Positions 19,542-21,880 of a stretch of 64,000 bases of DNA are shown in pieces. Made by a program: the position numbers and the translations under genes. The DNA comes from Pseudomonas sp. DY-1 (lineage in GTDB: Bacteria > Pseudomonadota > Gammaproteobacteria > Pseudomonadales > Pseudomonadaceae). Position 1 is the stretch's first letter. Each line of letters begins with the position of its first letter. The stretch covers positions 2,790,001 through 2,854,000 of the forward strand of contig NZ_CP032616.1 in the NCBI RefSeq assembly GCF_003626975.1, in the 5' to 3' direction. A model generated the notes under the pieces. The model worked only from the letters and a program-made list of their open reading frames with translations. It made no database searches and was not told the origin of the DNA.

Positions 19542-20873
19542 TTACAGCAAGGTCAGGGTGTAGCTCAGGATCAGCCGGTTCTCGTCCTGGTCGCGGGCTG
19601 CGTCGCTGCGCAGTGCGGCGTTGCGCCAGGACACGCCGAGCCCCTTCAGCGGACCGTCCTGCAGCACGTAGTCGAGGCGGAAGTCGCGCTCCCACTCGCC
19701 CTGGTCGCTGCCCTGGGTCTCGATGTTGCTGCCCTTCAGGTAGGTGCCCACCGCCTTCAGCCCCGGCACGCCGAGCTTGGCGAAGTCGTAGCCGTATTCG
19801 GCCACCCAGGTGCGCTCGCCGGCGCTGAGGAACTTGCCGATCTGGCGGTCGGTGATCAGGTAGGCGGTGGCGCCATCCCCCTGGTTGAGGAAGGGGAAGG
19901 CACTGTCGCCGGAGACCTGCTGGTAGCCCAGGCTGGCCGCGTGGCCGCCGAGGGTGTAGGTGAACAGCGCGCTCCAGGTGCGGTTGTCCACTTCATAGCG
20001 GTCCGGGTCGTTGGCCGCCCAGTTGCCCGAGCTGCGGAAGCCTTCGCGGCGGCCGGCCACGCTGGCGTTCTTGCCGTCGGAATCGCTGTAGAAGTAGCGC
20101 AGGTCGGACTTCAGCGCGCCCACCGGCAGCGCCCAGTTGTGGGTCAGGCCGAGGAAGTGCTGGTTGTAGAAGTCTTCCAGGTTGCCGTAGTAGTACTGCG
20201 CGAGCAGGTTGTCGCTGACCTTGTAGTCGCCCCCGGCGAAGTAGAACTTGTTGACGAACTGGCCGCTGCGGGCGTTGTTCGCGCCGGCGATCGACAGGCC
20301 ACGGGCGTCGCTGGAGTTACGCCCCTTGGCGTGTTCCAGCTGGCCACCGACCAGGGTCAGGCCGGCGATCTCGCTGGAGGTCACCTGGCCACCCTCGAAG
20401 GTCTGCGGCAGCAGGCGGCCGTCGTTGTAGGTCACCACCGGCAGCTTCGGCAGCAGGGTGCCGATGCGCGCTTCGGTCTTGGAAATGCGCACCTTGCCGG
20501 TCACGCCGAGGCTGCCGAAATCGTCCTTGGCGCGGCCGTCGTTGTCGGTCGGGAACACGGTGCCGCCGTAGCTGGCGCTGGTCGGGTTGTAGTGGCGGCC
20601 CTTGCCGGAATCCAGCTTCACGCCCAACAGGCCGAGGGCATCGACGCCAACCCCGACGGTGCCTTCGGTGTAGCCGGAGGCGTAGTTGAAGAGGAAGCCC
20701 TGGCCCCACTCTTCCTGCTTGGACGGCGCGTCGGCGAACTGGCGGTTGTCCGAGTTGATGTAGAAGTTGCGCAGGGTCAGGCTGGCCTTGCTGTCTTCGA
20801 TGAAACCGCCAGCGGCGGCCTGCTGGGCCAGCACGCCGAGGGCGACGGCCAGGGCGAAATGAGAGCGTTTCAT
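19542..20873 (-). CDS. OprD-family outer membrane porin
   Basis: 443 residues from ATG 20873 (GGAG 8 nt upstream), with a signal peptide ending QQAAA. GFIEDSKASLTLRNFYINSD and GFLFNYASGYTEGTVGVGVDALGLLGVKLD are hallmarks of the Occ/OprD barrel, and the C-terminus ends in a beta-strand with an aromatic-poor YTLTLL tail. Family members are substrate-selective 18-strand channels. It is divergent from modA, and a ModE-type box lies in its promoter, so a role in molybdate or another oxyanion is inferred. Confidence 0.88.
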   Translation of the reverse strand: MKRSHFALAVALGVLAQQAAAGGFIEDSKASLTLRNFYINSDNRQFADAPSKQEEWGQGFLFNYASGYTEGTVGVGVDALGLLGVKLDSGKGRHYNPTSASYGGTVFPTDNDGRAKDDFGSLGVTGKVRISKTEARIGTLLPKLPVVTYNDGRLLPQTFEGGQVTSSEIAGLTLVGGQLEHAKGRNSSDARGLSIAGANNARSGQFVNKFYFAGGDYKVSDNLLAQYYYGNLEDFYNQHFLGLTHNWALPVGALKSDLRYFYSDSDGKNASVAGRREGFRSSGNWAANDPDRYEVDNRTWSALFTYTLGGHAASLGYQQVSGDSAFPFLNQGDGATAYLITDRQIGKFLSAGERTWVAEYGYDFAKLGVPGLKAVGTYLKGSNIETQGSDQGEWERDFRLDYVLQDGPLKGLGVSWRNAALRSDAARDQDENRLILSYTLTLL

Positions 20874-20926
20874 TGCTGTACTCCGATGCATTGGGTCTTG
20901 AAGTCCTCCCGAAACCAATCGCACAT

Positions 20927-20950
20927 CGCTGTATTATTTTGTATATAGCG
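20927..20950. promoter_or_regulatory. ModE-type operator upstream of the porin
   Basis: CGCTGTAT-N8-ATATAGCG, an inverted repeat with 7 of 8 paired positions. It matches the known ModE core (CGNTATAT-N8-ATATAACG form) in sequence and spacing. It lies 54 nt from the porin start codon and overlaps a TAATAC -10-like element on that strand. Confidence 0.75.
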
Positions 20951-21023
20951 CTAGGCGAACATCATCGACCTGATCAAAAGGTCACCGAAGCAGATTGGCG
21001 GGCGGTGCAGATCAAACAGAAAC

Positions 21024-21039
21024 TTGACTTTGAAGTCAA
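21024..21039. promoter_or_regulatory. TTGACTT/AAGTCAA palindrome between the ModE boxes
   Basis: Perfect 7-bp inverted repeat with a 2-base spacer. It may be a further regulator site; TTGACT may also be a -35 for modA with a weak AACAAT-like -10 at about 21048. Confidence 0.35.
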
Positions 21040-21063
21040 CCAATCCCAACAATGCGTCGCAAT

Positions 21064-21087
21064 CGCTATATAGATATATACATAACG
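21064..21087. promoter_or_regulatory. ModE-type operator upstream of modA
   Basis: CGCTATAT-N8-ACATAACG, with the same 8-base spacer as the porin box and very close to the E. coli modA operator (CGTTATAT-N8-ACATAACG as I recall it). It ends 40 nt before the modA start. Confidence 0.8.
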
Positions 21088-21127
21088 CTAAAACAAGAAC
21101 CTCAGCACTTCACCAAGGAGTCGTCTC

Positions 21128-21880
21128 ATGAGTCATCACCTTTCCCGCGCCGCCGCCGCGCTCGTAGCTTTCGCCTTGGGCAGCGCGTCGGCCGCGGAAG
21201 TCCAAGTGGCTGTCGCCGCCAACTTCACCGCGCCGATCCAGGCCATTGCCAAGGACTTCGAGAAAGATACCGGCCACAAACTGGTCGCCGCCTCCGGTGC
21301 CACCGGCCAGCTCTTTACCCAGATCAAGAATGGCGCCCCCTTCGAGGTCTTTCTTTCGGCCGACGACACCACTCCGGCCAAGCTGGAAAAAGAAGGCGAT
21401 TCGGTGCCTGGCTCACGCTTCACGTACGCCATCGGCACCCTGGTGCTTTGGTCGGCGCAGGACGGCTATGTGGACGCCAAGGGCGATGTGCTGAAGAGCG
21501 GCCAGTACAAACACCTGTCCATCGCCAATCCGAAGACTGCACCTTACGGCCTGGCGGCCACCCAGGTGCTGGACAAGCTGGGCCTGGCCTCTGAAGTCAA
21601 ACCCAAGCTGGTGGAAGGCCAGAACATCACCCAGGCCCTGCAGTTCGTTTCCAGCGGGAATGCCGAGCTGGGCTTCGTCGCCCTGTCCCAGGTGTACAAG
21701 GACGGCAAGATCACCAGCGGCTCCGCCTGGATCGTGCCGGCCGACATGCATGAGCCGATCAAGCAGGACGCACTGATCCTGAAGAAGGGCGAAGCCAATC
21801 CGGCCGCCAAGGCACTGGTGGACTACCTGAGGGGGCCAAAGGCTGCGGAAGTGATCAAGTCTTACGGCTATCAGCTGTAA
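21128..21880 (+). CDS. modA: molybdate ABC transporter substrate-binding protein ModA
   Basis: 250 residues, AAGGAG 8 nt before the ATG, signal peptide ending ASA. The sequence follows ModA throughout ([63 protein letters not shown]). ModA delivers molybdate or tungstate to ModBC. No modB or modC follows, so this is an orphan binding protein that must share a transporter encoded elsewhere. Confidence 0.92.

Follow-up and report, generated by a model that had tools for sequence, protein, structure and literature searches.

The closest described system is the ModE-controlled modABC operon of Escherichia coli, in which modA is preceded by an operator that matches the boxes reported here in sequence type and spacing. 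From the established behaviour of ModE at E. coli modA, the molybdate-loaded regulator should act as a repressor. ModA, ModB, ModC and ModE are all encoded in the genome studied here. The organization departs from that of the E. coli operon in two respects: modA is split from modBC, and a porin gene is added behind a box of its own. To our knowledge, no molybdate porin has been described, and the passage of molybdate across the outer membrane has not been assigned to any specific channel.

The added channel resembles Pseudomonas aeruginosa OprE (4frx) and the other Occ (OprD) channels, as the Pfam OprD family covers nearly the whole protein and OprE is its best solved match. It is set apart from these channels by its ModE-type box and its linkage to modA. 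According to passages of PMC3260308, small polar molecules enter pseudomonads mainly via OprD-family channels, the Occ channels possess a basic ladder, and a carboxyl group is required for efficient transport through the characterized members; these passages do not name OprE. The basic ladder and the carboxyl requirement, as given there, fit an anion-friendly pore and argue against molybdate as a proven substrate. The phosphate porin OprP (in the same passages) is comparable in idea only, being an outer-membrane channel for a nutrient oxyanion; the porin studied here is assigned to OprD, and no shared membership is claimed.

We analyzed 64,000 nucleotides of the Pseudomonas sp. DY-1 chromosome (GCF_003626975.1, NZ_CP032616.1, positions 2,790,001 to 2,854,000), referred to below as the window, and compared the porin–modA locus found there with its counterparts in the genus and the family.

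Results

The porin gene (19542–20873, minus strand) encodes a 443-residue protein of the OprD/Occ family. PF03573 (OprD) matched residues 23–441 with 470.7 bits over profile positions 2–393 of 394, and OprE (4frx) matched residues 22–443 with 556.6 bits. The divergent modA (21128–21880, plus strand) encodes the periplasmic molybdate-binding protein (TIGR01256, 260.7 bits against a cut-off of 62.5), with the ModA chain 7t4z as its closest solved relative (402.9 bits). The modA neighbors, 87–93% identical, place the genome close to P. resinovorans. Two ModE-type boxes with N8 spacing separate the genes: CGCTGTAT-N8-ATATAGCG at 20927–20950, 53 bp from the porin start codon, and CGCTATAT-N8-ACATAACG at 21064–21087, 40 bp from the modA start codon. 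The initial annotation had proposed both, one for each gene; both are present and belong to the E. coli operator type.

A consensus promoter scan of the intergenic region yielded no promoter on the porin strand. Ahead of modA it gave the promoter-like hexamers TTGACT-18-AACAAT (21024–21053, plus strand), one occurrence compared with 0.4 expected in shuffles, which is not evidence of function. The modA-side box lies just downstream of these hexamers and, by consensus only, would sit approximately where modA transcription starts. The interval between the two boxes also holds a palindrome, TTGACTTTGAAGTCAA (21024–21039), with 11 of its 16 columns invariant in the six-genome alignment described below; it may be the modA −35 region or a site for another regulator. 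Near the porin, positions 13113–18656 hold the gene for a GntR regulator resembling PhnR, together with a gene cluster that includes an ABC ATPase resembling PhnT2. Both proteins scored below their NCBIfam cut-offs and four further proteins of the cluster gave no match at 1e-30; the cluster probably serves phosphonate uptake.

The boxes exceed chance expectation. Each deviates by a single mismatch from CGNTATAT-N8-ATATANCG, and at this stringency the pattern occurs at only these two places in the whole 5.9 Mb genome. Across 18 genomes of the genus it gave 36 sites, against 0 for a reversed-pattern control. The E. coli K-12 modA operator CGTTATATTGTCGCCTACATAACG, which starts 43 bp before modA, likewise has one mismatch. 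With the pattern of the initial annotation and up to three mismatches, five matches were found in the window (0.53 expected; none of 100 shuffles reached five): the two boxes, each on both strands, account for four, and the fifth is a three-mismatch site at 6955. When two mismatches were allowed to CGNTATAT-N8-ATATANCG, four sites were recovered in the genome, namely the two boxes, an unconvincing one, and a third box that begins 24 bp before modB (two mismatches). At three mismatches the pattern loses its specificity (27 genomic sites against 36 for the control). At that same tolerance, the genome's 20 OprD-family matches were scanned together with 1.5 kb of flanking DNA on each side; 19 had no box, which leaves the window porin as the only one with a box, and the reversed control gave three matches inside the AT-rich locus of the window and one at another of the 20 loci.

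The genome encodes the regulator that such boxes call for. ModE was looked for and found as a full-length protein (L024:1459-2223), the only one in the genome above the domain cut-off. Its helix-turn-helix domain scored 104.4 bits with TIGR00637 (cut-off 98.5) and its two Mop stretches 94.9 bits (cut-off 55); against NF007957, the model for E. coli-type equivalogs, it reached 212.2 bits, under the cut-off of 369. The genome holds one modA match, that of the window. Its single modB above cut-off (TIGR02141, 241 bits), with modC behind it (TIGR02142, 461.9 bits, also above cut-off), follows the third box at C2:2688562-2690337, about 120 kb from modA. The absence of modBC noted in the initial annotation is thus true of the locus and not of the genome, and the description of modA as an orphan is ruled out: the transporter genes occupy two separate loci, each with a box of this type.

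At the orthologous locus, a boxed porin beside modA was present in six of the 18 genus genomes (the window genome G000, G006, G007, G014, G015, and G016). Three more (G003, G010, and G012) keep the box beside a deleted porin, of which both ends remain in G010 and only the 3′ end in G012 and, by eye, in G003. We aligned these three with G000, G006, and G014; G007, G015, and G016 have another gene between the porin and modA and stood outside the alignment. The boxes are conserved, with 31 of the 32 half-site columns invariant compared with 51 of the 206 columns outside the boxes. Among the spacer columns of the same six genomes, 7 of 8 were invariant in the porin box and 2 of 8 in the modA box.

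In G007 and G015 (loci L172, L178, and L184 cover these two and G016) the intervening gene is a second ModE-like gene with a box (37% identity to ModE, tblastn); in G007, its product exceeded the cut-off for Mop and fell below that for the HTH domain. G016 has an open reading frame with a TOBE domain and a box at the same place.

The deleted porins bear on the possibility that box and linkage are real while the porin adds nothing measurable to molybdate uptake and is being lost clade by clade. The differing porin remains beside retained boxes in G003, G010, and G012 would be expected from such a process, as would the modA box of G001, which looks, by eye, like a porin box fused to modA after porin loss. 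Set against this, the porin is kept in six genus genomes, in at least two of which it has apparently been homogenized with a second copy (see below), and other porin–modA arrangements exist elsewhere in the family. We consider gradual loss of a dispensable porin very unlikely as an account of the locus.

In the family as a whole, an OprE-like porin (E value of 1e-140 or better) was found in at least 155 of the 298 genomes, and in at least 24 of the 298 such a porin lies no more than 5 kb from modA, the arrangement varying among them. The latter count is a lower bound: among the matches listed, 138 genomes outside the genus had the porin, 136 of them were searched for modA (G065 and G066, below 80% completeness, were left out), and 124 had one. 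The 24 comprise six genomes of this genus, 12 of genus g9, three with clusters, and three others. The arrangement was divergent in six genomes. In g9, the porin lies beyond modABC and is convergent to it; the porin has its own box, which begins 85–113 bp before the porin start and has at most two mismatches in 11 of the 12 genomes (the full two in nine of these 11) and three in the twelfth. The order in the three clusters (L207, L212, and L213) is box–porin–small ORF–modA–modB–modC, all on one strand, with no other box at up to four mismatches between porin and modA. P. akapageensis (L070), which stands outside the set of 24, has a box, the porin and, after about 40 bp, modA; no modB or modC match occurred within 10 kb on either side. 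The linkage therefore recurs with a box in several different arrangements; the three other linked cases (L301, L302, and L304) have no box.

The small ORF in the porin–modA gap of L207, L212, and L213 encodes 92–96 residues, of which 84 of 92 agree between L212 and L213 and 59 of 96 columns between L207 and L212. L304 (G069) contains a second, diverged modA–modB–modC set, followed on the same strand by the OprE-like porin and without a ModE-type box.

The trait is patchy, and many modA loci have no porin. The porin adjoins modA in five of 80 named modA loci (L029–L032 and L070), four of which are also counted among the genus genomes; most of the remainder are modABC behind a box. None of 60 further modA loci (L232–L291) had a porin within 1.5 kb, 11 having one beyond modC, and four g9 comparator stretches (L308–L311) had no porin.

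The same-strand arrangements also help to decide the direction of regulation. It is conceivable that the channel admits a molybdoenzyme substrate such as nitrate and that loaded ModE activates its gene, so that the box couples a respiratory substrate channel to molybdenum sufficiency and not to starvation. Two annotations fit this view: E. coli ModE is listed as a dual regulator, and the solved structure nearest to the porin bears the name anaerobically-induced porin OprE. The porin box of the window starts 77 bp ahead of the start codon, which is compatible with repression as well as activation; the corresponding distance is 73–113 bp in 24 of the 25 boxed porins of our sample and 34 bp in the remaining one. 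Against this, a single box stands ahead of both genes in L207, L212, L213, and L070, where the porin comes first and modA follows on the same strand, so that the porin should be regulated like the uptake genes. Queries with a fixed gene list around the linked porins revealed no nitrate gene beside them, which weighs little. An activated channel for an enzyme substrate is an unlikely reading.

To quantify the association, a box was counted when it had at most two mismatches and began 20–130 bp before the porin start. It preceded 21 of the 25 porins with modA within 5 kb and 4 of the 69 without (Fisher p = 2.7e-13), which leaves 4 of the 25 linked porins without a box at two mismatches. The sample of 94 porins (91 different proteins) is non-random and not phylogenetically independent: 20 loci were picked for a nearby modA or as comparators, one gene is present twice (L136 and L176), and in the fragmented assemblies G014, G016, G007, and G015 one porin gene may count as several partial copies. 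On the porin tree, a quick tree with SH-aLRT support only, eight independent pairs gave on average 6.3 concordant, 0 discordant, and 1.7 uninformative comparisons, in which the members showed no difference (sign test, median p = 0.03, range 0.016–0.125). Boxed porins without modA nearby occurred in G008, G009, and G017, at sulfonate loci, and in G149. The last of these (L190), from another genus, is 94% identical to the porin of the window and has a perfect ModE-type box; no modA match was found within the 14 kb examined, and horizontal transfer is possible.

The window genome contains a near-identical second porin gene (G000:C2:4042006-4043334) in a taurine/sulfonate locus. It is flanked by TauA (TIGR01729, 467.1 bits) on one side and by a peroxiredoxin and an SsuA-like start (PRK11553, 71.2 bits over 91 residues) on the other, and no ModE-type box precedes it. 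The two copies are 99.48% identical over 1542 bp, with eight mismatches and no gaps (blastn). The shared stretch (19316–20857 in the window, minus strand) runs from the sixth codon to 226 bp beyond the stop; both boxes and the five codons before it lie outside, so the promoter regions of the two copies differ.

At the level of coding sequence, the two copies share 99.0% identity, and no other species among the 13 sequences compared exceeds 95.6%. The pair of G006 is 96.3% identical, its other comparisons giving at most 93.6%. In the window genome and in G006, the tree joins the modA-linked porin to the copy at that genome's own sulfonate locus (SH-aLRT 85 and 99, respectively). The same within-genome pairing in G015 (86), G014 (96), and G016 (95) comes from fragmented assemblies, where collapse of the copies is possible, and the tree did not resolve the two copies of G007 into a pair. 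The modA-linked porins of g9 cluster instead with that of P. akapageensis, in a group of their own with 13 entries (SH-aLRT 99). A single origin of the modA-linked porins without loss or conversion was rejected, since the tree requires 12 changes of label. A duplication unique to the window genome was likewise discarded, because other genomes have a modA-linked porin or its remnant at the orthologous place. From these sequence comparisons, the two coding sequences appear to be homogenized by gene conversion. This reading is the best fit because the modA-linked locus is common to several species, and overwriting of an older copy fits better than repeated duplication.

The twin also limits what can be said about the substrate. 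The idea of a porin dedicated to molybdate, put forward in the initial annotation, is doubtful in view of a 99% identical, unboxed porin at the taurine/sulfonate locus, and this twin makes exclusive dedication unlikely. Since nearly the same protein is encoded beside taurine/sulfonate transporter genes, the porin itself is not molybdate-specific; what is special is the second promoter. One could go further and regard the porin as a sulfonate or sulfate-ester channel for sulfur uptake, its box reflecting sulfate–molybdate antagonism with molybdate as a signal only. The position of the second copy, between TauA and the peroxiredoxin/SsuA-like start, agrees with such a role, and the sulfonate-locus porin is itself boxed in G008, G009, and G017. 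Boxes at sulfonate-locus copies are nevertheless rare (3 with and 23 without among the porins with sulfonate genes nearby), and a purely sulfur-related channel would leave the repeated adjacency of OprE-like porins and modA, including the modABC clusters, unexplained. We regard it as improbable.

Discussion

The comparative evidence supports control of the locus by ModE well, and we hold such control to be very likely. The unit as a whole is probably a ModE-controlled molybdate uptake system, the outer-membrane step of which would be an OprE-like, anion-preferring porin. With ample molybdenum, ModE loaded with molybdate would bind both boxes and hold down expression of the porin and of modA. 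Under shortage, the porin would raise the permeability of the outer membrane to molybdate, and probably to tungstate. ModA would then capture molybdate in the periplasm, and ModBC, encoded elsewhere behind the third box, would import it. We infer repression by ModE, derepression at low molybdate, and molybdate passage from the comparisons above. The direction proposed for the porin is that of modABC, because in some genomes the porin precedes modA or modABC behind one box.

A contribution of the porin to molybdate entry is itself somewhat more probable than its absence, given the observations that count against the uptake reading: the porin is deleted in three genomes that keep the box, the trait is patchy, a near-identical copy sits at the sulfonate locus, a minority of linked porins have no box, ModE falls under the NF007957 cut-off, and efficient transport through characterized Occ channels reportedly needs a carboxyl group (PMC3260308, in the passages cited above). 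Of the molybdate-controlled unit of porin and binding protein first suggested for this locus, the core stands, with ModE, the conserved boxes, and the recurring linkage in its favor; the orphan modA and the dedicated porin do not.

ModE-type boxes also precede other genes in the genus. A gene for a 661-residue TonB-dependent receptor, 84–100% alike in G008 (L339), G009 (L340), and G004 (L337), is followed by one for a 180-residue protein with an Oxidored_molyb domain, behind two boxes with one and two mismatches (families assigned from the G009 copy). This receptor is a candidate second outer-membrane route for molybdenum. In G003 (L334:2107-2604) and G013 (L344:2075-2569), a DUF1543 gene, 84% alike in the two, lies just behind a ModE-type box.

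Our broader proposal is a tentative one, to which we give slightly less than even weight: pseudomonads may have repeatedly recruited an OprE-type channel for molybdate, and this genus may keep two converted, near-identical copies under two switches, that of the sulfonate locus and ModE, so that the promoter, not the protein, would decide which anion is scavenged. If true, this near-identical pair would offer a clean example of paralogs that gene conversion holds to one protein under two promoters, with different regulation. With a porin in the ModE regulon, the route of molybdate across the outer membrane becomes directly testable. Together with the boxed TonB-dependent receptor of three relatives, the boxed porin suggests that outer-membrane permeability may be a real molybdenum bottleneck in this family.
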